Below are positions 16,366 to 42,204 of a DNA stretch of 64,000 nt, one piece after another. The DNA comes from Defluviitaleaceae bacterium (GTDB taxonomy: Bacteria; Bacillota; Clostridia; Lachnospirales; WRAX01). The number at the start of each line of letters is the position of its first letter. Position 1 is the stretch's first letter. The DNA is taken from positions 1 through 64,000 of the forward strand of contig WRBK01000004.1 of NCBI GenBank assembly GCA_009784575.1. The letters run 5' to 3'. The notes under the pieces are model-generated. The model was given only the letters and a program-made list of their open reading frames with translations. It searched no databases and was not told the DNA's origin. Position numbers and translations under genes: made by a program.

Positions 16366-16394
16366 TTGCACGTGCCAAAATGTTATGGTATAAT
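16366..16394 (+). promoter_or_regulatory. Promoter of the glycine reductase operon
   Basis: TTGCAC (16366-16371), a 17-base spacer and a perfect TATAAT (16389-16394). The start near 16401 would place the riboswitch about 20 nt into the transcript. Confidence 0.85.
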
Positions 16395-16421
16395 GTCTTT
16401 ACAATAATATTTTCGTATGAA

Positions 16422-16618
16422 GGTTGCGGGAGAGCTTACTAGGAAAACGGTAGGCACCGAAGGAATAAGCGATGCTTTAGCCGAAATGTCGCGAAAATCT
16501 CAGGTAAACGAACCGCAGCTTGACGAAACTCTGGAAAGTCTTATTTGTCTTGCCTTTGCGGACAAAAGACACCGAAGGGGCAACTTTTACAGGAAACTCT
16601 CAGGTTTGATGACAGAGC
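16422..16618 (+). promoter_or_regulatory. Tandem glycine riboswitch
   Basis: Two glycine aptamers lie in series. Aptamer 1 (about 16422-16524) has GCGGGAGAG, CACCGAAGGAATAAGC and ATCTCAGGTAAA. Aptamer 2 (about 16526-16618) has CTCTGGAAAG, CACCGAAGGGGCAA, AAACTCTCAGG and GACAGAG. These are the conserved glycine riboswitch blocks in the usual order. Aptamer 2's P1 pairs CTCTG (16529-16533) with CAGAG (16613-16617). The track ORF 16417..16683 is an artefact of this RNA. Confidence 0.95.
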
Positions 16619-16649
16619 AAAGGCTATTTCCTTTGTCCTGTCCTTTTTT
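16611..16649 (+). terminator. Glycine-controlled intrinsic terminator (expression platform)
   Basis: GACAG-ag-CAAAGG (16611-16623) pairs with CCTTTG-tc-CTGTC (16630-16642) and is followed by CTTTTTT. Its 5' strand reuses the CAGAG that forms P1 of aptamer 2, so glycine binding should block the terminator. This predicts a glycine ON switch acting by antitermination. Confidence 0.88.
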
Positions 16650-16675
16650 AGTTGAGAGCATTTGGAAAGAAAAGA

Positions 16676-17047
16676 GTGATTGATATAGACAAATTGCTTA
16701 CGAATAATCCTATGGCGGCAGAGCGGTATGTAAGCAGATTTGATATAAATCTGCTTAGGGGATATAGTGTTTTGGGCGTGCTAAAAGAAGTGAGGAATCT
16801 TGTGCATCAAGGCAATAGGCTGCTAACGCACCCTGTTACAAGCGGTACTGCGCCTAACGGCAACCCCTTTTGTTCTGTTGTGGTTTCAGCAGAGGCTGGC
16901 TCAACTGATTTCAATTCTGTGAGCATTATTGAAAATTCAATAGCTGTGCGCGAAAAAATAAGCATGAATTTGAAATTGCCAGATACAGCGATTGAGGACT
17001 TTATGTTAATAGATTGTGATATGATAGCAAAGGGCGGTACGATTTGA
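16676..17047 (+). CDS. grdX: GrdX protein of glycine reductase operon
   Basis: Predicted protein of 123 aa from GTG 16676. The track's TTG 16652 lies next to the terminator hairpin. The motif LLTNNPMAAE at the start and LVHQGNRLLTHPVTSG in the middle match GrdX, a small protein encoded at the head of grd operons in Clostridia. Its biochemical role is unknown. It is the first gene behind the glycine riboswitch. Confidence 0.85.
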   Translation: MIDIDKLLTNNPMAAERYVSRFDINLLRGYSVLGVLKEVRNLVHQGNRLLTHPVTSGTAPNGNPFCSVVVSAEAGSTDFNSVSIIENSIAVREKISMNLKLPDTAIEDFMLIDCDMIAKGGTI

Positions 17048-17102
17048 TTTTGGTAGTAAATGATAGACAAGATATAATACACACCGATAAGGAGGGAACG
17101 AT

Positions 17103-18383
17103 TTGAAACTAACCATTGGCAATATTAGAATTACTAATATTGTACTGGGTGAGCAGAGCAAAGTCGAAAGCGGCACACTCTATGTAAACCCAAAGGAGCT
17201 GGAGGCAGTGGTGCTAGAAGATAGCAATATTGTTTCTGTAAAATTTGATGTGGCAAAGCCAGGTGAGAGTACCCGCATAACGCCTGTTAAAGATGTTATT
17301 GAACCACGCACAAAAGCACAAGGTGAGGGCGGCATGTTTCCTGGCGTTATTGCCAAAGTTGATACTGTTGGTAGTGGCGTGACACATGTGCTAAAAGGTG
17401 CTGCGGTTGTCACTGTAGGTAAGATTGTTGGCTTCCAAGAAGGCATTATCGACATGACTGGTCTAGGGGCGGAATATACACCGTTTTCTAAGACTATCAA
17501 TCTTGTGATGGATTTTGTGCCGCGCGATGGTCTTGCTGCTCATGATTATGAGAAATCATTGCGTCTTGCTGGTCTTAAAGCCGCATCATGGCTAGGGGGC
17601 TTGGGTAAAAATGTAAAACCTGATGAAGAGATTGTTTATGATTTCTCATCTGTGACTGAGGGCATCAAGAAATATCCTGACCTTCCGCGTGTGGGCTATG
17701 TGCAAATGCTACAATCCCAAGGTCTTTTGCATGATACCTATGTTTATGGCGTGGATATGAAGCAGTCTTTGACAACGATGATTTGCCCAACAGAGGTATT
17801 TGATGGAGCAATTATTAGCGGTAACTGTGTTTCTGCTTGCGATAAGAACACCACTTATCATCATCAAAATAATCCTGTCGTAACTGACCTTTTTGCGCGG
17901 CATGGTAAGGATTTGAATTTTGCTGGTATGATTATTACAAATGAAAATGTGTATCTTGCTGATAAGGAGCGTAGCAGTGATTGGACGGCAAAGCTTGTTG
18001 CTATGATGGGCTTTGACGGCGTTATAATCTCTCAAGAGGGCTTTGGTAATCCTGATACTGACCTTATCATGAACTGCAAGAAGGTTGAAGCTCTAGGTGT
18101 TGATACGGTTATCATCACTGATGAATATGCTGGACGTGACGGCACAAGCCAATCTCTTGCGGACGTTGACGTATCTGCAAATGCCGTGGTTACAGGCGGC
18201 AATGCTAACCAAGTTATTACTTTGCCTAAGTTGGACAAAGTTATCGGCACGCAAGAGTATGTAGATGTGATTGCTGGCGGCTTTGAAAACAATGTGCAAG
18301 CCGACGGTAGCATAGTTGTTGAAATTCAAGCCATTATCGGTGCTACAAACGAAATGGGCTTTAACAAAATGTCTGCACGATAA
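17103..18383 (+). CDS. grdE: Glycine reductase component B, proprotein GrdE
   Basis: Predicted protein of 426 aa with a TTG start and GGAGGG 6 bases upstream. In this family the proprotein is cut before a cysteine that becomes a pyruvoyl group. Here SGNCVSACDKNTTYHH places this cysteine at residue 242, preceded by Asn241, the same position as in characterised GrdE. The pyruvoyl group forms a Schiff base with glycine, so GrdE with selenoprotein GrdB makes protein B specific for glycine. All key residues are present. Confidence 0.96.
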   Translation: MKLTIGNIRITNIVLGEQSKVESGTLYVNPKELEAVVLEDSNIVSVKFDVAKPGESTRITPVKDVIEPRTKAQGEGGMFPGVIAKVDTVGSGVTHVLKGAAVVTVGKIVGFQEGIIDMTGLGAEYTPFSKTINLVMDFVPRDGLAAHDYEKSLRLAGLKAASWLGGLGKNVKPDEEIVYDFSSVTEGIKKYPDLPRVGYVQMLQSQGLLHDTYVYGVDMKQSLTTMICPTEVFDGAIISGNCVSACDKNTTYHHQNNPVVTDLFARHGKDLNFAGMIITNENVYLADKERSSDWTAKLVAMMGFDGVIISQEGFGNPDTDLIMNCKKVEALGVDTVIITDEYAGRDGTSQSLADVDVSANAVVTGGNANQVITLPKLDKVIGTQEYVDVIAGGFENNVQADGSIVVEIQAIIGATNEMGFNKMSAR

Positions 18384-18385
18384 AA

Positions 18386-19606
18386 ATGGCAACGCGCAGT
18401 ATTATCCATGTGGATATGGATGCGTTTTTTGCCGCGGTGGAGATTTTGCATGACCCATCGCTTGCTGGCAAGCCGCTTATAATAGGTGCTTTGCCGCATG
18501 AGCGCGGCGTAGTGGCTACATGCAGCTATGAGGCTCGCGTATTTGGCGTTCGTTCCGCTATGAATATCAAAGAGGCATATAGGCTATGTCCGCATGGGAT
18601 TTATATGCATCCGAATGGTGGCAGATATGTGGAGGCATCTCGGCAGATTCATAAAATTTGGGATGATTATACAGATTTGGCGGAATATGTTTCTCTTGAT
18701 GAGGGATATTTGGATGTTACACATAGTGCGCATTTGTTTGGTGGAACTTCAAAAATTGGTCACGAGATAAAAGAGCGTACGCTTGATGAAATTGGGCTTT
18801 CGTGCTCTGTGGGCATTGGTTATTCTATGATGAGTGCTAAAATTGCCAGTGAAGAAGGCAAGCCTGGTGGCATTTTTGAAATTGCGGATGCGGAAGCTCT
18901 GCAACGGCTGATTATAGACCGCAATGTGCGTGTGATATATGGTGTTGGGGCTAAGTCGGCAGAGGTATTAGCGAAAAATGGCATACAAACTGTGCGAGAT
19001 ATTTTGGCTAATGTGGATAAAGTTCGTGACCTATTGGGCAAGCATGGGCATGATATTGTTCGGCTGTCAAACGGTGAGGATGTAAGGCGCGTGGCTACAC
19101 CGTCAAAGTCAAAATCTATTGGCAAAGAACATACATTCCAAAAGGATGTTACGGATTTTGAATATCTGCGTGATTCTTTACGGCTTATGGCAAAGCGGCT
19201 TAGCTTCAAGATTTGTATGGGTGGGCTTTCTGCCAAGACAGTTACGCTAAAGGTTACGTACGGCAATATGAAGCAGATAACGCGTAGCAAGACTGGCTCA
19301 CATGTTAGCAGCACGCGTGAGATATTTGAGATTGTGTCGGCTTTGCTTGATAAGGTAGAACGGCGACCTGTGCGGCTTGTGGGGATTAGCCTTGGTGGTT
19401 TGATGAATGAGTCTGTGGAGCAGATTAGTTTGTTTGATGCAGGAGCTGGCGACCAAAAGCTGCCCCTACAAGAGTTACTGTTAGAACTACATTATCGCTA
19501 TGGGTTAGACAAGATTGGCACGGCTCAGGAGATGTTGGCGCGTGAGAATTTGCGGGAACACTCTGGTGATGAAATAGAAGAAGATGGATTTAATAAACGA
19601 ATGTAA
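18386..19606 (+). CDS. dinB: Y-family DNA polymerase IV
   Basis: Predicted protein of 406 aa. Palm motifs HVDMDAFFAAVEI and SLDEGYLDVT carry the catalytic Asp/Asp-Glu residues. Helix-hairpin-helix, thumb and little-finger regions follow. It performs low-fidelity translesion synthesis. It starts 2 bases after grdE and ends 39 bases before grdB without its own visible promoter or terminator, so it would be co-transcribed with glycine reductase. This is not a normal member of grd operons, and base use looks like its neighbours. Confidence 0.95.
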   Translation: MATRSIIHVDMDAFFAAVEILHDPSLAGKPLIIGALPHERGVVATCSYEARVFGVRSAMNIKEAYRLCPHGIYMHPNGGRYVEASRQIHKIWDDYTDLAEYVSLDEGYLDVTHSAHLFGGTSKIGHEIKERTLDEIGLSCSVGIGYSMMSAKIASEEGKPGGIFEIADAEALQRLIIDRNVRVIYGVGAKSAEVLAKNGIQTVRDILANVDKVRDLLGKHGHDIVRLSNGEDVRRVATPSKSKSIGKEHTFQKDVTDFEYLRDSLRLMAKRLSFKICMGGLSAKTVTLKVTYGNMKQITRSKTGSHVSSTREIFEIVSALLDKVERRPVRLVGISLGGLMNESVEQISLFDAGAGDQKLPLQELLLELHYRYGLDKIGTAQEMLARENLREHSGDEIEEDGFNKRM

Positions 19607-19645: not shown

Positions 19646-20956
19646 TTGCTAAAGATTTTGCATTATATTAATCAATTTTATGGCGGCATAGGCGGCGAAG
19701 AACACGCTGGACATCTGCCAGAAATGCGCGAAGGAGCTGTGGGTCCTGGCACTGCTTTTGCGGCGGCTTTCGGCGCAGATGCGACTATTACGCATACAAT
19801 TATTTGCGGCGATTCTTATTTTGGTGAAAATTTGGAAGAAGCCAAAAAGACTATACTTGAAATGGTGCGCGGTGTAAAACCAGACCTGTTTTTAGCTGGC
19901 CCTGCTTTTAATGCGGGACGTTATGGCGTGGCTTGCGGTACTATTTGTGATGCTGTTAAAGAAGAGCTTGGCATACCTGTTCTTACGGGCATGTATATAG
20001 AAAACCCAGGCGCAGAGATGTTTGTAGATAAAATGCATATTGTTTCTACAAAAGACAGTGCTGTTGGTATGCGTGATGCTGTGCCGAAAATGGCTAAACT
20101 TGCGCTAAAGCTTGCCCGTGGCGAGAATATCGGTGCGTCTATTGAAGAGGGTTATATGCCTGGCTATATGCGTGTTAATTTCTTTGAAGAAAAGCGCGGT
20201 AGCGAGCGTGCTGTAGACATGCTTTTAGCTAAAATGAAGAAAGAACCATTTACAACAGAGTTTCCAATGCCTGATTTTGACCGCGTTGAGGCGTTGCCAC
20301 CTGTTTTGGACATATCTAAAGCCAAGATTGCTTTGGTGACATCTGGCGGCATTGTGCCAAAGGGTAATCCTGATAGAATTGAGGCATCTTCTGCTTCTAA
20401 GTATGGCGAATACGATATCGCTGGCGTGGATGACCTTACAGAGGCAACATACGAAACAGCGCATGGCGGTTATGACCCAACCTATGCAAATGTGGACTCT
20501 GACCGCGTTTTGCCTGTGGATGTATTGCGTGAAATGGAAAATGCTGGCAAGATTGGTTCTTTGCATAACAAATTTTATACCACAACAGGTAACGGTACGG
20601 CTGTTAAATCCTCTGCGGCATTTGCTATTGAGTTTGCGGCTAAACTAAAGAATGATGGTGTTGATGCTGTTATTCTTACCTCTACCTGAGGTACATGTAC
20701 TCGTTGCGGTGCAACGATGGTTAAAGAAGTAGAGCGCGCGGGCATTCCTGTTGTGCATATTTGTACAGTAACACCAATATCGATGACAGTAGGCGCGAAC
20801 CGCATTGTTCCTGCTATTGCTATTCCTCATCCGCTTGGTAATCCAAAGCTAAGCATGGCTGAGGAAAAAGAAATCCGCACGAAAATTGTGGAAACTTCTC
20901 TGCAAGCATTAGCTACGCCTGTTGATGGACAGACTATATTTGAAGTGAAGTATTAA
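19646..20956 (+). CDS. grdB: Glycine reductase component B selenoprotein GrdB (Sec)
   Basis: Predicted protein of 436 aa read through an in-frame UGA at 20687-20689 (codon 348). The two track ORFs (19646-20689 and 20717-20956) are one gene. The site reads LTST-U-GTCTRCG, the GrdB U-x-x-C-x-x-C motif, and the downstream part (TVTPISMTVGANRIVPAIAI) is fully conserved in kind. TTG start with AAGGAGG at 19631-19637. With GrdE it converts glycine to a form passed to the GrdA selenol. Confidence 0.96.
20687..20716 (+). promoter_or_regulatory. Candidate bacterial SECIS hairpin of grdB
   Basis: Immediately downstream of the UGA, CGTTGC-GGT-GCAACG (20702-20716) forms a perfect 6-bp stem with the GGU loop about 20 nt past the UGA. 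This is the distance and loop type SelB recognises. Confidence 0.65.
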
Positions 20957-20968
20957 AATTTGATTGCG

Positions 20969-20994
20969 GGAGCGGTCGTAAAATCGACCGCTCC
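20969..20994. repeat. GC-rich palindrome between grdB and trxB
   Basis: GGAGCGGTCG-taaaat-CGACCGCTCC is a perfect 10-bp stem with no T-tract, so it is more likely an mRNA-processing or stabilising hairpin, or a REP-like repeat, than a terminator. It resembles the element at 1822-1840 (shared CGGTC/GACCG core). Confidence 0.6.
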
Positions 20995-21020
20995 GAAGCA
21001 ACCATAAATAGGTGATTATT

Positions 21021-21956
21021 ATGGAAAATATCTATGACGTTATAATTCTTGGCGGTGGACCTGGCGGGCTTTCTGCTGGTCTTTATGCAGGGCGCAGCCG
21101 CCTGAAAACACTGCTTATTGAAAAAGCCTTTGATGGTGGGCAGATAGCAACCACAGCCGAGATTGAGAATTATCCTGGGCAGATGGAACATGATTCTGGA
21201 CCTAGCTTGGTAGAGCGCATGAGTGCGCAGGCTACAAAGTTTGGCATAGAAAAGGTATATGAGACCGTTGAAGAAGTGAAGCTTGAAGGTGCTGTAAAGA
21301 TAGTTAAGACTTCTGAAAATACCTACCAAACAAAGACTATTATCATTGCTACAGGCGCAAATCCACGCCCAATTGGCTGCCCAGGTGAAAAAGAGCTTGT
21401 TGGCAAGGGCGTAAGTTATTGCGCTACCTGTGACGGTGCTTTTTTTGAAGATTTGGAAGTATATGTAATCGGTGGCGGTGATACTGCTGTAGAAGAGGGC
21501 GTATACCTTACACGATTTGCTCGCAAGGTCACAATTGTGCATAGACGCGATGAGCTACGTGCTGCAAAATACCTTCAAGAACATGCCATGGAAAATCCTA
21601 AGATAGACTTTATGTGGAATAGCGTGGTTGTGGAAGTTAAGGGCGACGAGATTGTCGAGGGCATGGTTGTAGAGGACACCAAGACAGGCGAAAGGCGAGA
21701 AATAATGGCAGATGATGAAGACGGCACATTCGGCATTTTTGTATTTGTTGGTTTCTTGCCGAACTCTGGTCTGTATGAAGGTCAAATAACCATGCAAGAC
21801 GGCTATATTGTTACTGATGAAGATATGCGCACTAATATTGACGGCGTTTTTGCTGTGGGTGATATACGTGTGAAGAGCCTTCGCCAAGTGGTAACTGCGG
21901 CGGCTGATGGGGCTATTGCGGCTACTCAGGTAGATAAGTACCTTATGGGGCATTAA
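21021..21956 (+). CDS. trxB: Thioredoxin reductase
   Basis: Predicted protein of 311 aa from ATG 21021 (AGGTGAT upstream). It has the FAD-binding ILGGGPGGLSAGLYAG, the redox dithiol CATCDG, an NADPH-binding VIGGGDTAVEEG and the C-terminal FAD motif AVGDIR. It passes electrons from NADPH (or a related donor) to the TrxA encoded next. In grd operons this pair regenerates the reduced GrdA selenoprotein. Confidence 0.95.
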   Translation: MENIYDVIILGGGPGGLSAGLYAGRSRLKTLLIEKAFDGGQIATTAEIENYPGQMEHDSGPSLVERMSAQATKFGIEKVYETVEEVKLEGAVKIVKTSENTYQTKTIIIATGANPRPIGCPGEKELVGKGVSYCATCDGAFFEDLEVYVIGGGDTAVEEGVYLTRFARKVTIVHRRDELRAAKYLQEHAMENPKIDFMWNSVVVEVKGDEIVEGMVVEDTKTGERREIMADDEDGTFGIFVFVGFLPNSGLYEGQITMQDGYIVTDEDMRTNIDGVFAVGDIRVKSLRQVVTAAADGAIAATQVDKYLMGH

Positions 21957-21978: not shown

Positions 21979-22296
21979 ATGTTAGAATTTAACAAAGAAA
22001 ATTTTGCTAGTGAAGTTTTAGAAGCATCTGGCAAAATATTCGTTATGTTTTCTGGGGCTGGTTGAGCTCCGTGTGCGGCTATTAAGCCCTTCGTTGTAGG
22101 TTGCAGCGAAAAATACGGCGATAAAATAAAGTTTGGCACAGTGGACACAGGTACAAATAAGCGGTTGGCTATTGGGCAAAGAGTTATGGGCATACCTACA
22201 TTTGTTGTCTATGAAGGCGGCGAAAAGATAGAGACCCTTGGAAAAGATGATACAACAGAGACTAATATTGAAGCTTTGATAGAGCGTCATATATAA
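21979..22296 (+). CDS. trxA: Selenocysteine-containing thioredoxin TrxA (Sec)
   Basis: Absent from the ORF track because of an in-frame UGA at 22063-22065 (codon 29). Read as Sec it gives a 105-aa thioredoxin: MLEFNKENFASEVLEASGKI, then FSGAG-U-APC, FGTVDTG and the cis-Pro loop GIPTFVVYEGG. The UGA replaces the first cysteine of the CxxC site (U-A-P-C), and the Trp usually before it is Gly. AGGAGG at 21967-21972. It presumably transfers electrons from TrxB to the GrdA selenoether intermediate. A nonsense mutation is less likely because everything after the UGA remains thioredoxin. Confidence 0.9.
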
Positions 22297-22319
22297 TAGG
22301 CGTAAAGGAGGCTACAATC

Positions 22320-22457
22320 ATGAAAATACTAAAAGCTTTAGGGTTAATGCTTTAGGGACTGTTAGCCTTGTTTATATTTGGCTACTCATCTGGAGCGGAT
22401 TGGAGAAGCGCAAGGGTGAAATCTCCGACTGTGAGAAGGTTTGATTCAGGTATGTGA
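22320..22457 (+). CDS. Small ORF with internal UAG between trxA and grdA
   Basis: ATG 22320 follows a consensus AAAGGAGG (22304-22311). The frame reads MKILKALGLML, then TAG (22353-22355), then GLLALFIFGYSSGADW and on to a TGA at 22455. The hydrophobic stretch runs across the amber codon, as if one 44-residue signal-anchor peptide had been interrupted. Possibilities are an 11-residue leader peptide, a nonsense-mutated small membrane protein, or UAG readthrough. TAG is an ordinary stop in this window (cheR, cheA, ackA and grdC end in it), which argues against general recoding. Confidence 0.4.
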
Positions 22458-22508
22458 TGAGTATAGCCTACTGAAATGTAAATTCTTATATAAAGGAGGA
22501 ATATAAAA

Positions 22509-22979
22509 ATGGCAATTTTAGCAAACAAAAAAATCGTTGCCATTGGCGACCGTGACGGCGTGCCAGGTCCAGCTATCGAAGAAGTTGTAAAGACGGCTGG
22601 CGGCGAAATCGTGTTCTCTTCCACAGAGTGCTTTGTCTGAACGGCCGCTGGTGCAATGGACTTGGAAAATCAAAAGAGGGTTAAAGAGCTATCTGAAACC
22701 CACGGTGCAGAAAATGTAGTTGTTATCCTTGGTGCCGCCGAAGGCGAAGCATCTGGCATAGCAGCAGAAACCGTGACAGCAGGCGACCCTACTTTTGCAG
22801 GACCATTGACAGGGGTCTCGTTGGGACTCAAAGTATATCATATTTGTGAAGAAGAAATTAAAGCAGAAGTTGATGCTGGCGTGTATGATGAACAGGTTGG
22901 CATGATGGAAATGGTATTGAATTTGGACGAGATAGCGGCAGAAATGCAATCTATCCGCAGTCAATACACAAAATTCTAA
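22509..22979 (+). CDS. grdA: Glycine reductase selenoprotein A GrdA (Sec)
   Basis: Predicted protein of 156 aa read through UGA at 22638-22640 (codon 44). The site is TECFV-U-TAAGAMD, the GrdA C-x-x-U redox motif. The track shows only the part after the UGA. AAAGGAGG at 22493-22500 sets the ATG at 22509. The selenol accepts the carboxymethyl group from protein B, and GrdC/GrdD then split off acetyl phosphate, leaving an oxidised Se-S bond that thioredoxin reduces. Confidence 0.97.
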
Positions 22980-22992
22980 AAGAATTAATTTG

Positions 22993-23019
22993 GGCGGGCT
23001 TAATATGCCCGCCTGTTTT
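22993..23019 (+). terminator. Weak intercistronic hairpin after grdA
   Basis: GGCGGGC (22993-22999) and GCCCGCC (23007-23013) enclose a 7-base loop and are followed by TGTTTTC. It looks like a partial terminator or attenuator that would let grdA, needed in excess, be more abundant than grdC and grdD. Confidence 0.55.
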
Positions 23020-23034
23020 CAAATGGAGGTTTAT

Positions 23035-24564
23035 ATGAATTCTGTGATAAAATCAGTGGCGTATACGCTAACACATGCGCCTGATTTGGTGATACATGCA
23101 GGAACAACGCAAACAACAGAGCGCATTGTTAATCCTGAAAGTGAGTATTTGGTTGCTTTGCCTAAGGCTTTGCGCAAATACGAAGATGCGGTGAACTATC
23201 CGCCGAATCAAACATATATAGGTGGTATGACACCAGCAGATTTGGAAAAGATATCCATGCCATGGTATGAAAATGGCACAAAATCTGATAGATTCGGCAA
23301 GTTTGGGGAAATCACTCCGCAAGAAGAGTTGTACTTGGTCATGCAGATTTGTGATTGCTTTGATTTGGTTATGCTAGAAGCAAGCTTTGCGGCTGGTGCG
23401 GCAAAGCAGATAGAGAGTCATCCGCTTTTTACTGATGAAATTAAGGCTCGCATAAAGCCTGGCACAGAGATTGCGGTTATTGAAAATGAAGTAAAAGAAA
23501 ATGGGGCAGAGGGCTTGTATCACGACAACAAGCTTGTGGGCTGTGTGAAAAAAGCGCATAGTATAGACGAAAATCTAAGTGCTCATGTAATTCTTGAAAA
23601 TCTTGTGTCGAAGTCTACATCTGTGATATCTATGATGAATCTTGTGAAAAACAGCGGCATAAACATTGCTTCTGTGGATTGTGTAATAGATTGTTCAGAA
23701 GAAGCTGTGGGCGATATGAACCAGCGCGGTGGTGGTAACCTTGCTAAAGCATCTGCTGAAATTGTGGGCTTTACGGGCGCAACTGGCTTTGACGTGCGTG
23801 GTTTTTGTGCGGCACCTGTTCATGCTATTATTACAGCGGCATCTTTAGTAAAATCTGGCACATACAAAAATGTGATTGTTACTGCTGGTGGTAGCACTGC
23901 GAAGCTGGGTATGAACGGCAAAGACCATGTGAAGAAGGGTCTGCCTGTGCTTGAGGATGTGCTTGGCGGATTTGCTGTACTTATAAGTGAAAATGATGGA
24001 ATCAATCCAGAGATACTTTCTGAATATGTTGGTCGCCATGTGGTGGGTAGCGGCTCTAGCCCACAGGCCGTTATCACGGCTCTTGTGACTAATCCGCTTG
24101 ATGCTATGGGCATCAAAATTACTGATGTGGATAAGTTCTCGCCAGAAATGCATAATCCTGATGTTACAAAGCCTGCGGGTGCTGGTGATGTACCAGAATC
24201 TAACTATAAGATGATTGGTGCGCTTGCTGTTAAGCGGGGCGAACTAGATAGAACAGAGCTGCCCAATTTCGTGACAAAGCACGGCATGGTGGGCTTTGCG
24301 CCTACACAGGGTCATATACCTTCTGGCATACCATATCTTGGCTTTGGACGTGAGGACATTTTAGAAGGGAAAATTACGCGAACTATGATAGTGGGCAAGG
24401 GTAGCTTGTTTCTTGGGCGCATGACGAATCTCTTTGATGGTGCATCATTTGTGGTTGAGAAAAATAGCGGCACTACTGATACTGGTAGCATATCTGAAGA
24501 GCAAGTGAGGTCGCTTATTGCAGAAAGCTTGCGTGATTTTGCGAAAAGTCTTGGGGGTGAATAG
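23035..24564 (+). CDS. grdC: Glycine reductase component C, beta subunit GrdC
   Basis: Predicted protein of 509 aa from ATG 23035 (ATGGAGG upstream), close to the 512 aa of known GrdC. The C-terminal two thirds have a thiolase/FabH-like fold (DCSEEAVGDMNQRGGGNLAK, AATGFDVRGFCAAPVHA region). With GrdD it takes the carboxymethyl group from GrdA and releases acetyl phosphate. Confidence 0.95.
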   Translation: MNSVIKSVAYTLTHAPDLVIHAGTTQTTERIVNPESEYLVALPKALRKYEDAVNYPPNQTYIGGMTPADLEKISMPWYENGTKSDRFGKFGEITPQEELYLVMQICDCFDLVMLEASFAAGAAKQIESHPLFTDEIKARIKPGTEIAVIENEVKENGAEGLYHDNKLVGCVKKAHSIDENLSAHVILENLVSKSTSVISMMNLVKNSGINIASVDCVIDCSEEAVGDMNQRGGGNLAKASAEIVGFTGATGFDVRGFCAAPVHAIITAASLVKSGTYKNVIVTAGGSTAKLGMNGKDHVKKGLPVLEDVLGGFAVLISENDGINPEILSEYVGRHVVGSGSSPQAVITALVTNPLDAMGIKITDVDKFSPEMHNPDVTKPAGAGDVPESNYKMIGALAVKRGELDRTELPNFVTKHGMVGFAPTQGHIPSGIPYLGFGREDILEGKITRTMIVGKGSLFLGRMTNLFDGASFVVEKNSGTTDTGSISEEQVRSLIAESLRDFAKSLGGE

Positions 24565-25686
24565 ATGGAGGCCACAATCAAGAAAATTATCGCAAAGACC
24601 TTTGATGAACTGGCTACAGGGCTTGAAACTGGTAGCTTTGGTGGCGCGCCAAAAATTGCGCTAATGGGTGTTGGTAGTGAGCATGGCGAGGCAGAGATGC
24701 AAGAAGGTGCAGACATGGCGGCTTCACGCGGACTTGAGGCAAAATTCATAGGTGGTGTAACGGAAGCCGAAGCAACAGAGATAATTGAAAAGATGCTGAA
24801 AAGTGGCGAGGCTGATGGTGCCGTTGCTATGCACTATACTTTCCCTATTGGTGTTGCTACTGTAGGTAAAGTTGTGACACCTGCTACGGGTCGTTCGCTT
24901 TATATCACCACAACCACGGGTAGCTCTGCTACAGACAGAGTTGCGGCAATGGTGCGTAATGCTATATATGGCATTATTGCGGCTAAAGCTAGCGGAGTGG
25001 CGAATCCTTCCGTAGGTATTTTGAACATAGATGGCGCAAGGCAAGTAGAGCGTGCATTGCGTGAGATTGCAGACAATGGTTATAATATAAACTTCGCACA
25101 ATCCAAGAGGTCAGACGGTGGCGTGTTTATGCGCGGCAATGATGTTTTGAACAATCCTTGCGATGTACTTGTTTGCGATTCTTTGACAGGCAATGTATTG
25201 ATGAAGCTGCTATCCGGCTTTACAACAGGCGGTAGCTACGAAGCCACAGGCTTTGGATATGGCCCTGGTATAGGCGAAAATAGCGACCAATTGGTGCTGA
25301 TTGTATCACGTGCATCTGGCGCACCTGTGGTTGCAGGTGCTATGGAATACGCGGCACAACTGGTAAAAGGTGATTGGAAAAAGGTGCTAAAGGCGGAGTT
25401 TGCGGCAGCAAATGCGGCAGGCTTGCGGGCTGTTCTCGAGAAAATCACAGAAAAATCTGCGCCTGTTGCCACTGAAACTGTTGTTGCCCCTCCAAAAGAG
25501 ATTGTGACAGCCGAGATTTCTGGCATAGAGATTACAGAGCTTGACGATGCTGTGAATGTGTTATGGAAAGCATCTATCTATGCTGAAAGCGGCATGGGTT
25601 GCACAGGACCGATTGTACTTGTAAATGAAAGTAAACTAGAAACCGCACAGAAGATACTGAAAGATGCAGGATTTGTGAGCGAATGA
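24565..25686 (+). CDS. grdD: Glycine reductase component C, alpha subunit GrdD
   Basis: Predicted protein of 373 aa with a PlsX-like fold. Near the C-terminus, ESGMGCTGPIVLVNE carries the conserved cysteine (residue 346) that forms the acetyl-thioester in protein C before phosphorolysis to acetyl phosphate. The ATG follows the grdC stop without a gap, and the stop overlaps the selA start, so translation is coupled across grdC-grdD-selA. Confidence 0.95.
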   Translation: MEATIKKIIAKTFDELATGLETGSFGGAPKIALMGVGSEHGEAEMQEGADMAASRGLEAKFIGGVTEAEATEIIEKMLKSGEADGAVAMHYTFPIGVATVGKVVTPATGRSLYITTTTGSSATDRVAAMVRNAIYGIIAAKASGVANPSVGILNIDGARQVERALREIADNGYNINFAQSKRSDGGVFMRGNDVLNNPCDVLVCDSLTGNVLMKLLSGFTTGGSYEATGFGYGPGIGENSDQLVLIVSRASGAPVVAGAMEYAAQLVKGDWKKVLKAEFAAANAAGLRAVLEKITEKSAPVATETVVAPPKEIVTAEISGIEITELDDAVNVLWKASIYAESGMGCTGPIVLVNESKLETAQKILKDAGFVSE

Positions 25687-27047
25687 TGATGAGTAAAAAT
25701 GATATTTTGCGGAAAATACCACAGGTAGACTCTTTGTTGCAAGAGCTAGGTGATAGCAATGTGCGAGCGAAAGATATTAGGGCGGTTTTGAATAAATTGC
25801 GCTCTGATGTACTGTCGGGCAAAATTGCAGAAATTCCTAGTGTTGATGAAATTTTGTCGGCGGCTGTGACTAAAGGCAATGAGAGTTCCACCTTTGGTTT
25901 TCGTAGAATGATAAATGCTACAGGCATTGTATTGCATACCAATTTGGGGCGTGCGCCACTGCCGCCTGAAGTTGCGAAACATGTGGCACAAATTGCTATG
26001 GGTTATTGCAATCTGGAATATGATATCGAAACAGGCCGTCGTGGTAGCCGCATGAGTGCTATACAAAACCGCCTAACAAAGCTATGTGGAGCAGAAGCTG
26101 CCGTCTGTGTTAATAATAATGCGGCGGCAGTGCTTCTGGTGCTTTCTGCGCTGTGCGCGGGTGGCGAGGTTATAGTTTCGCGTGGAGAGTTGGTAGAAAT
26201 TGGAGGCTCTTTTCGTGTGCCTGAAGTGATTTCGCAGGGCGGCGCAAGGCTTGTGGAGATAGGCACCACAAATAAAACCCACACATCCGATTATGTGAAG
26301 GCGATTTGTGATAGCACATCTGCTATACTGAAAGTTCACACATCGAATTATCGCATTGTGGGTTTTACAGAAGAAGTGGGGATTACAGAGTTGTCGGAAA
26401 TAACCAAAGAGAGCGGGTTGCCACTAATCTATGACCTTGGCGGAGGTGCGCTGATTGAGCTATCGCAAAGTGAGCCAACAGTACAAAAAACTATGGTTCA
26501 AGGTGTGGATGTGCTGTGTTTTAGCGGCGACAAGCTGCTCGGTGGTCCGCAATGTGGCATTATTGTTGGTAAAAAGAAGTATATCGACAAAATTGCAAAG
26601 CATCCGCTGTATCGCGCATTGCGTATGGATAAACTCACAATAGCGGCCTTGGAAGGCATGTTAATGATGTATGAAAATGGTAAGGCAAGTGAAATTCCGA
26701 CTATAGCCTTGCTAACTAAGAGTACTGATGAATTAAAGGTAGATGCCGAAAAATTAATTAATATACTCAAACCCATGACAGAAAAATTTTCTGTGAGTAT
26801 AGTTGAAACAAGTGGTCAAGTGGGCGGTGGCTCATTGCCAACGGAAGAATTTCCTTCTTTTGCTGTTGCTATAACAACCGAAGCTATGCCGTTGCAAGAA
26901 TTAGAACATAAATTGCGGCAATGGGATATACCAATTGTATCAAGAATTTATAGAGAGCAATTGTTGCTGGATGTGCGAACCGTATCATGTGCTGATTTTT
27001 ATGTGATTGCCGATGCAGTGAAATCTATATTCGGAGGATGCCTTTGA
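25683..27047 (+). CDS. selA: L-seryl-tRNA(Sec) selenium transferase
   Basis: Predicted protein of 454 aa. It is a PLP enzyme that converts seryl-tRNA(Sec) to selenocysteyl-tRNA(Sec) with selenophosphate. The N-terminal domain is followed by RRMINATGIVLHTNLGRAPL and the PLP-lysine region DVLCFSGDKLLGGPQCGIIVG. It overlaps grdD by 4 bases (ATGA). Selenocysteine machinery inside a riboswitch-controlled grd transcript would tie Sec supply to glycine. Confidence 0.96.
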   Translation: MMMSKNDILRKIPQVDSLLQELGDSNVRAKDIRAVLNKLRSDVLSGKIAEIPSVDEILSAAVTKGNESSTFGFRRMINATGIVLHTNLGRAPLPPEVAKHVAQIAMGYCNLEYDIETGRRGSRMSAIQNRLTKLCGAEAAVCVNNNAAAVLLVLSALCAGGEVIVSRGELVEIGGSFRVPEVISQGGARLVEIGTTNKTHTSDYVKAICDSTSAILKVHTSNYRIVGFTEEVGITELSEITKESGLPLIYDLGGGALIELSQSEPTVQKTMVQGVDVLCFSGDKLLGGPQCGIIVGKKKYIDKIAKHPLYRALRMDKLTIAALEGMLMMYENGKASEIPTIALLTKSTDELKVDAEKLINILKPMTEKFSVSIVETSGQVGGGSLPTEEFPSFAVAITTEAMPLQELEHKLRQWDIPIVSRIYREQLLLDVRTVSCADFYVIADAVKSIFGGCL

Positions 27048-27048
27048 A

Positions 27049-28956
27049 ATGAATGTAAATAATGCGATTATAGGCACTGCTGGTCATGTAGACCACGGGA
27101 AAACCCTGCTAATTAAAGCATTAACAGGTATGGATACAGACCGTCTTGCTGAGGAGAAAAAACGTGGCATAACTATAGAGCTTGGCTTTGCATATCTTAT
27201 ATTGCCAAATGGGGAGAAGGCTGGCATTGTTGATGTGCCTGGCCACGAAAAATTTGTGCGTAATATGCTTGCGGGAGCGGGGAGTATAGACCTTGCTATG
27301 CTTGTGGTGGCAGCAGATGAAGGCATCATGCCGCAAACGCGTGAACATTTAGCCATATTGAAAACATTGGGTATTGAACGCGGCTTGGTCGTGCTTAATA
27401 AGGTTGACCTTGTGGATGATGACTGGCTGGCGATGGTCACGCTGGACATTGAGGATGAGCTAAGCGGCTGCTTTCTTGAAGATGCTGCTATTATGCCAGT
27501 TTCAGCAACTACAGGGCAAGGCATTGATGACCTGCGCCATATGATTTTTGATATGCTCGCCAAATCGCCGCCAAAAAATCTGGATATACCTTTTCGTATG
27601 CCTATTGACCGTGTGTTTACTATGGGTGGCTTTGGCACTGTTGTAACTGGCACGCTAATTGAGGGTAGCCTTATGCTTGGGCAGGATGTTACTTTGTATC
27701 CATCTGGGCTGACTACAAAGGCGCGCCGCATACAGGTTCACGGCGAAGAAAATGAGAAAGCAACGGCTGGGCAACGTGTTGCAGTAAATTTGGCTGGACT
27801 AAAAGTTTCGGATATATCCAAAGGTGACCTTATTGCACAATCGCAAAGCCTAGAAACTTCACAACTTTTAGATGTTGTAATAGAGGTTGATGCTGATTTC
27901 AAGCGAGATATACGTCACAATTCTCGGTTGCATTTATATCATGGCACAGCGGATATATTATGTAGTCTTACATTATTTGATAAAGACATGATAACAAGCG
28001 GCGACCGAGTGTATGCGCAATTGCGCCTAGCGGAGCCGCTTGCCGCAAAAACAGGTGACCGCTTTGTGTTGCGCTTTTATTCACCTGTGGAAACTGTGGG
28101 CGGCGGCGTTATTTTGGATGCGGTGGCTGTGCGAGCGAAGCGCGATTCTGATATGGCTAAAAAGCTCAAAGTTAAAGAAATGGGTAGTGTAAAAGAATGT
28201 ATTTCTGTAATTTTTGCTGAAAGAAGTGCTTATTTCCCTGACATCGAGAGAATTAAGAGGCAGTATTTTTTGGAAGACAATTTTGATAATGAATTTAAAA
28301 AGCTCTTGGGTGATGGTGAACTGATTGTAGTTGGTAAAACTTTTGCTGTGCATAAAAATTACGTGAATGAATTAGGCAAGCGGGCGCAGAATATACTTAA
28401 CGGATATCATAAAGAAAACCCTTTGCAGGCGGGCATGGCTGCCCCAGAGCTACACACACGCATGTTGCCTCACCTAGAGCGCGGACTGGTGGAAAATGTT
28501 GTGAATGCCTTAGTGGAGCTGGGTTTTGTGAAGCGACATGGCTTGGCTGTGGCTCATGCTGGTTTTGTGCCAAAAGCTACTGATGGACATAAGAAAATCG
28601 CAGACAAAATTTTAGGCATATATGGTAGTGCGAGCTTTGCTACGCCATCTTATGAAGAGGTGGCGGCCGACTTTGTGAAGGAAAAACGAGACTTTGCACA
28701 AGTTTTTCAATCGCTTGTAAAAAGTGGCGAGCTAGTTGCTTTAACGCCGCAAATACATATGCGTAAAGATTTTTATGATAGAGCTTTGGGCATATTTTCT
28801 GAACTTGCAAAAACCAAGGATGAAGTGCTTTTAGGAGATTTTAGGGATGCAATAGCTGCTAGCCGCAAATATGCTCTTGCATTACTAGATTATTTTGATA
28901 AAAGGAATATTACCAAGAAGGCTGGCGAAGGCAGGGTTCTAATTAATAAAATTTAA
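27049..28956 (+). CDS. selB: Selenocysteine-specific elongation factor SelB
   Basis: Predicted protein of 635 aa. The EF-Tu-like GTPase (GTAGHVDHGKTLLIKAL, DVPGHEKFVRNML, NKVDLVDD) is followed by beta-barrel domains and a C-terminal array of winged helices (about 380-635) that binds the SECIS hairpin. It delivers Sec-tRNA to UGA codons such as those of grdA, grdB and trxA. It starts one base after the selA stop and ends the operon. Confidence 0.96.
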   Translation: MNVNNAIIGTAGHVDHGKTLLIKALTGMDTDRLAEEKKRGITIELGFAYLILPNGEKAGIVDVPGHEKFVRNMLAGAGSIDLAMLVVAADEGIMPQTREHLAILKTLGIERGLVVLNKVDLVDDDWLAMVTLDIEDELSGCFLEDAAIMPVSATTGQGIDDLRHMIFDMLAKSPPKNLDIPFRMPIDRVFTMGGFGTVVTGTLIEGSLMLGQDVTLYPSGLTTKARRIQVHGEENEKATAGQRVAVNLAGLKVSDISKGDLIAQSQSLETSQLLDVVIEVDADFKRDIRHNSRLHLYHGTADILCSLTLFDKDMITSGDRVYAQLRLAEPLAAKTGDRFVLRFYSPVETVGGGVILDAVAVRAKRDSDMAKKLKVKEMGSVKECISVIFAERSAYFPDIERIKRQYFLEDNFDNEFKKLLGDGELIVVGKTFAVHKNYVNELGKRAQNILNGYHKENPLQAGMAAPELHTRMLPHLERGLVENVVNALVELGFVKRHGLAVAHAGFVPKATDGHKKIADKILGIYGSASFATPSYEEVAADFVKEKRDFAQVFQSLVKSGELVALTPQIHMRKDFYDRALGIFSELAKTKDEVLLGDFRDAIAASRKYALALLDYFDKRNITKKAGEGRVLINKI

Positions 28957-28964
28957 ATTCCTAG

Positions 28965-28993
28965 TTGACAAGTAGGGATTAATGTGATATAGT
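28965..28993 (+). promoter_or_regulatory. Sigma-A promoter of the superoxide dismutase gene
   Basis: TTGACA (28965-28970), a 17-base spacer and TATAGT (28988-28993). It lies in the 77-base gap after selB. Confidence 0.82.
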
Positions 28994-41575: not shown

Positions 41576-42097
41576 CTATGCTAGCTTCGCAACCCTCATG
41601 CCTGTTGCCGCTAGCTTTATAACTACGAATTGTAAAGGTAACATGATGACAGTACGTATGATGCGTCCGCCAAGCAGCACCATATATGCATCACCAAACA
41701 TTATGGAGAGCCATAAGGTTTCTAAACCAAGCTGTATAAAAACAACCACTGCAATTGCTGCTAAAGCGGCATTTAAATTGTTCGTTGGCTTTTTGTATAA
41801 GAAGAAACCATAGGCAGAACCTGCTAAAAATGCAGTGAAGGTAAAGCCTGGAAAATAGATACCGCGAGGAAAAAGCCAAAAGGCTATCAAGTCCACCATC
41901 ATATATGCTGTACCTGCCTTCCAAGGGCCATACTTCATGGCTATAATGGCAATGGGTAAAAACTCGAAACTTAATCTGAATTGCGGCGTTACCATAATAG
42001 CTAGATAACTACGGAAAACTACTGCCATAGCGACCATAAGACCTATGGTTGTCAGCATTAAAATATCTGTTTTTGTTCCGTTTTCATTTGTGTTCAA
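41576..42097 (-). CDS. folT: Folate ECF transporter S component FolT
   Basis: Predicted protein of 173 aa with five or six transmembrane helices. It has the FolT-type segment RLSFEFLPIAIIAMKYGPWKAGTAYMMVDLIAFWLFP. It is the substrate-binding membrane subunit for folate uptake. Two independent context signals support folate: a THF riboswitch ends 8 bases before its ATG, and folC lies upstream. Confidence 0.9.
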   Translation of the reverse strand: MNTNENGTKTDILMLTTIGLMVAMAVVFRSYLAIMVTPQFRLSFEFLPIAIIAMKYGPWKAGTAYMMVDLIAFWLFPRGIYFPGFTFTAFLAGSAYGFFLYKKPTNNLNAALAAIAVVVFIQLGLETLWLSIMFGDAYMVLLGGRIIRTVIMLPLQFVVIKLAATGMRVAKLA

Positions 42098-42105
42098 TTA
42101 AAAAA

Positions 42106-42204
42106 CCTCCCAGCGGATGCGAAAATATACCGCGCCCCATAGGGGCTTCGTCCGACGGCAACTTCCCATCCGCCGACACTTAACGCATATTTTCTACTCT
42201 GAAT
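42106..42204 (-). promoter_or_regulatory. Tetrahydrofolate (THF) riboswitch
   Basis: On the minus strand the order AGAGTAGA, GCGTTAAGTG, GGATGGGAAGTTG, CGAAG, GCGCGGTA and CGCATCCGCTGGGAGG matches the THF riboswitch consensus. P1 would pair TTCAG with CTGGG, which overlaps the folT Shine-Dalgarno GGGAGG. Ligand binding should therefore hide the ribosome site (OFF switch acting on translation). Confidence 0.93.

Follow-up and report, generated by a model that had tools for sequence, protein, structure and literature searches.

In C. difficile, glycine riboswitches are found at gcv, at a symporter and at the grd operon CD2357-48 (reviewed in PMC11477304). Glycine raises grd transcription in this organism (PMC11477304), as is repeated in a study of thioredoxin (PMC10880999). 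A large comparative study of glycine riboswitches describes singlets that retain a "ghost" aptamer and does not mention reductases (PMC6944388). For B. subtilis gcvT, the mechanism is established as antitermination, and the device is a proven ON switch (PMC5666159).

The DNA analysed here (the window) consists of 64,000 nt of contig WRBK01000004.1 from a Defluviitaleaceae bacterium (assembly GCA_009784575.1). As in C. difficile CD2357-48, a glycine riboswitch precedes grdX-led glycine reductase genes that include trxA and trxB; unlike CD2357-48, the window operon also contains dinB, selA and selB, and its gene order differs (Table 1). As in B. subtilis gcvT, two aptamers are followed by a rho-independent terminator, and the switch, proven to be ON at gcvT, is predicted to be ON in the window. 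The gcvT switch controls glycine cleavage, whereas no gcvT was found in the window's 81%-complete assembly. Many grd leaders from related genomes resemble type-1 singlets with a ghost aptamer and likewise share P1 with the terminator; in contrast, the second aptamer of the window is complete. A reading of the sequence without database searches (the sequence-only reading) had suggested that the gating of glycine reductase is unusual. This does not hold, because the C. difficile switch was already published and a model built from 20 aptamers finds glycine aptamers at 52 of 80 named grdE loci of Clostridia (Terrisporobacter, Sedimentibacter and Flavonifractor among them), a lower bound since upstream sequence is missing at some loci. 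Thus, a glycine riboswitch at a grd operon is a known and widespread use, of which the window is a clear and well-supported further example.

Table 1. Features of the leader and operon (window coordinates)
Feature	Position	Strand	Basis or remark
Probable promoter	16366..16394	+	TTGCAC 16366-16371 (3/6 of -35), 17-nt spacer, extended -10 TGGTATAAT ending at 16394; inferred by reading the sequence
Glycine aptamer 1 with leader/linker P0	16413..16525	+	RF00504, RF03166 outer helix, model R1
Glycine aptamer 2	16524..16622	+	RF00504
Intrinsic terminator (5' arm includes the 3' strand of aptamer 2 P1)	16611..16650	+	
grdX	16676..17047	+	NF038093, 91.6 bits; start comparison
grdE, protein B alpha subunit	17103..18383	+	PF09338, E 1.6e-201
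dinB, Y-family DNA polymerase IV	18386..19606	+	NF002677, 318 bits (cut-off 256); PF00817 and PF11799
grdB, glycine reductase selenoprotein B	19646..20956	+	TIGR01917, 676.1 bits (cut-off 602.2)
trxB, thioredoxin reductase	21012..21956	+	TIGR01292, 377 bits
trxA, thioredoxin with U-x-x-C	21979..22296	+	NF047697, 117 bits (below cut-off 140)
grdA, selenoprotein A	22509..22979	+	NF040748, 264.8 bits; in-frame TGA (Sec)
grdC, component C beta subunit	22990..24564	+	NF040746, 772.9 bits
grdD, component C alpha subunit	24565..25686	+	NF040747, 526.1 bits
selA	25683..27047	+	TIGR00474, 554.2 bits; start overlaps grdD stop (ATGA)
selB	27049..28956	+	TIGR00475, 376.6 bits

The tandem aptamers

From the position of the probable promoter, whose extended -10 element is kept in two genomes of the same genus (G001, TGATATAAT; G002, TGGTATACT), transcription would start at about 16401. 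Two adjacent glycine aptamers, recognized in the sequence-only reading, are borne out by the RF00504 covariance search that it had proposed: both exceed the gathering cut-off of 32 bits. Aptamer 1 matches at 16417-16525 on the + strand (55.3 bits, E 1.1e-8; 84.9 bits with model R1), and aptamer 2, when scanned alone, matches at 16524-16622 (46.6 bits, E 3.5e-9). A separate scan is needed since clan competition masks aptamer 2 in a scan of the whole tandem. The two follow each other closely (total span 16413-16622) and are joined by a leader-linker with a kink-turn region, in which UCG (16413-16415) pairs with CGA (16523-16525) to form P0, a 3-base outer helix seen in the RF03166 alignment. P1 of aptamer 2 is formed by CTCTG (16529-16533) and CAGAG (16613-16617). 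Judged on these features, the leader is a true two-sensor (tandem) glycine riboswitch, and glycine binding is predicted. No further RF00504 match was found in the rest of the assembly (1.84 Mb, 81.3% complete). Elsewhere in the window, a THF riboswitch (42109-42203, - strand, 84.1 bits) lies 5' of a gene for an ECF transporter substrate-binding component (41576-42097), which probably serves folate uptake.

It is possible, but doubtful, that aptamer 2 is decaying and that glycine is sensed by aptamer 1 only. Aptamer 2 would then serve mainly for docking and as a P1 scaffold, on its way to becoming the ghost aptamer of a type-1 singlet, and the leader would still be a glycine ON switch. Such decay is suggested by the lower score of aptamer 2, by its usual GGAC, which reads UGAC in 5/5 tandem relatives, and by the many grd leaders of the order in which one full aptamer is followed by just a short CTCTG...CAGAG stem (L010, L014, L009, L002); published work also finds aptamer 1 to be the better kept in ON contexts (PMC6944388). 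However, aptamer 2 scores above the Rfam cut-off and retains CACCGAAGG and CUCUCAGG, and its same-genus copies reach 45.5 and 43.1 bits, which argues against decay. Sensing of some other ligand, as by a variant such as glycine-GGAnGA, is very improbable: the full tandem does align to RF03166, but its 69 bits fall far under that family's gathering score (110), each aptamer on its own passes RF00504 and has a canonical motif (GGAGAG in aptamer 1, GGAAAG in aptamer 2), and the substrate of the operon is glycine.

Switching between P1 and the terminator

The arms of the terminator, GACAGAGCAAAGG (16611-16623) and CCTTTGTCCTGTC (16630-16642), are followed by CTTTTTTA, with a U-tract at 16644-16649. 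The predicted fold (-15.3 kcal/mol, z = -3.73) is matched in stability by none of 200 shuffled sequences; the promoter/terminator scanner's own call at the leader covers just the inner stem. As the sequence-only reading had noticed, the 5' arm reuses CAGAG, the 3' strand of aptamer 2 P1. Because this strand belongs to both structures, P1 and the terminator are mutually exclusive, the arrangement of an ON switch. That reading had also spoken of an explicit antitermination platform. The sharing of the strand stands, but a separate antiterminator does not: in the best model, P1 of aptamer 2 itself fills that role.

When successive transcript lengths are folded, P1 forms first and is later lost to the terminator. 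Its pairing probability is ~0.98 for a transcript that extends to 16622 and falls to 0 for one that extends to 16642, at which point the terminator reaches ~0.99. If P1 is forced, only the inner 6-bp hairpin is left, apart from the U-tract, at -28.4 versus -35.3 kcal/mol. Given the ~7 kcal/mol by which the terminator is favoured over the P1-forced state, switching has to depend on kinetics and on help from the ligand.

Taken together, the leader is very likely a transcriptional ON switch that, as predicted from sequence, works by antitermination for the ~12-kb glycine-reductase operon. RNA polymerase would start near 16401 and make aptamers 1 and 2, docked through P0 and the kink-turn. Binding of glycine would hold P1 of aptamer 2 shut and so bar CAGAG from the terminator; just the short inner hairpin, too far from the U-tract, could then form, and polymerase would read through into grdX-grdE-dinB-grdB-trxB-trxA-grdA-grdC-grdD-selA-selB. 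When glycine is lacking, invasion of P1 by the 3' arm (16630-16642) would complete the terminator and stop polymerase at ~16645-16650. The earlier proposal that glycine stabilises P1 and lets polymerase pass into grdX-grdE and onward is therefore one that the tandem aptamers, the P1/terminator sharing and the comparison of leaders support. We infer glycine binding, the direction of the response and cotranscription as far as selB. An OFF switch, like those of glycine transporter leaders, is hardly credible here even though some glycine riboswitches do act in this way (PMC11477304), since the glycine-stabilised P1 overlaps the terminator stem itself rather than an anti-terminator, and the controlled genes degrade glycine.

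Comparison of grd leaders

The terminator and, as far as contig ends allow, the tandem aptamers are kept in G001, G002 and a further genome of the same family, G007, in whose terminator 13/13 positions pair. Among 60 grd operon leaders, a terminator pairs with the P1 3' strand in 57, which is not an unbiased rate because the script picked hairpins that pair with P1. In a placement control with the literal CAGAG, the motif overlaps the terminator 5' half in 36 of the 37 grd leaders that carry it; random placement predicts 8.7 overlaps and, over 200,000 trials, never gave more than 22. In addition, the C/T of the P1 5' strand, the G/A of the P1 3' strand and the C/T of the terminator 3' arm vary together across the 60 leaders: the usual partner of CTCTG is CAGAG and that of TTCTG is CAGAA, with matching changes in the terminator 3' arm. 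Refolding of the G072 terminator gave -12.0 kcal/mol.

Other arrangements were seen at grd loci. Terrisporobacter L112 and L141 have two separate glycine riboswitches within ~4 kb, each before its own grdE-grdB set, and in three related genomes a tRNA-Sec gene lies immediately 5' of the grd riboswitch, at L004 (979-1072), L007 (1163-1256) and L029 (870-963).

Genes of the operon

The scan for promoters and terminators found no terminator-like site on the + strand between the operon genes. Promoter-like matches occur within the operon (for example, 17050-17078), from which a degree of expression independent of glycine could arise. The strong promoter-like site at 28965 is that of the following superoxide dismutase gene.

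The grdX reading frame is open from TTG 16652, and its start is probably further 3', for example at GTG 16676, or at a rare codon close by. Start codons of grdX look unusual in the riboswitch clade (16676-16690 in the window): TTG is used in G001 and G007, and grdX of L005 (G072) has no in-frame ATG, GTG or TTG and may start at an ATC behind AGGAGG. GrdB is of the glycine type, as it passes TIGR01917, the equivalog model specific for glycine reductase, and the sarcosine and betaine models stay under their cut-offs (686.3 < 800 and 555.2 < 775, respectively). Its gene has an in-frame TGA (Sec) at 20687, followed by a SECIS_4 element (20690-20727; RF01990, 63.1 bits). Between grdB and trxB, a perfect 10-bp hairpin without a T tail (GGAGCGGTCG-TAAAAT-CGACCGCTCC, 20969-20994) may have a role in RNA processing or stability. 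In trxA, a TGA stands at the first active-site cysteine position (selenocysteine), as it does in G001. The cargo of the trxA-grdA gap differs by species; judged by eye, it is an acetyltransferase-like ORF in G001 (L142 7566-8063) and a HicB/HicA-like pair in G002 (L143 7590-8030), and in the window (22300-22480) it is a small ORF interrupted by TAG.

The suggestion that Sec synthesis answers to the same ligand is right in part. It applies to selA, which overlaps grdD, and selB, not to all Sec genes, because selC and selD are together on another contig (G000:C1:84154-85246), where selD has one in-frame TGA. The order grdX-grdE-dinB-...-grdD-selA-selB is the same in G002 and G007, and G001 agrees to its contig end; in several other Clostridia, selA-selB lie upstream of grdX instead.

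The least expected content of the operon is dinB, located between grdE and grdB with its start 2 nt past the grdE stop. Its position is unchanged in G001, G002 and G007 (L142 3168-4382, L143 2636-3853 and L144 8381-9547), making four genomes of one family with the window. The protein keeps both Pfam domains, and the gene is the only one for a Y-family polymerase found in the window's assembly; when other grd-bearing family members have such a gene, grd and the polymerase gene are on separate contigs. SOS control was considered and rejected: no perfect GAAC-N4-GTTC is nearby, the nearest one-mismatch site is inside the gene (19127), and the total of SOS-like sites in the window is near chance. 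A literature search pairing dinB with glycine reductase found nothing relevant. By subjecting this polymerase, selA and selB jointly to control by glycine, the riboswitch might raise mutagenic/translesion capacity and Sec decoding during glycine fermentation, an idea that we regard as unlikely.

Conclusions

Besides glycine cleavage and transport, glycine reductase operons make up a third context in which glycine riboswitches are common. The covariation of P1 and terminator in the set of 60 leaders supplied here directly supports, on evolutionary grounds, the antitermination model for grd operons, and a known regulatory device is extended to an uncultured Clostridia family. As predicted from its leader, this gut bacterium very probably turns on the enzymes that burn glycine only in the presence of glycine.
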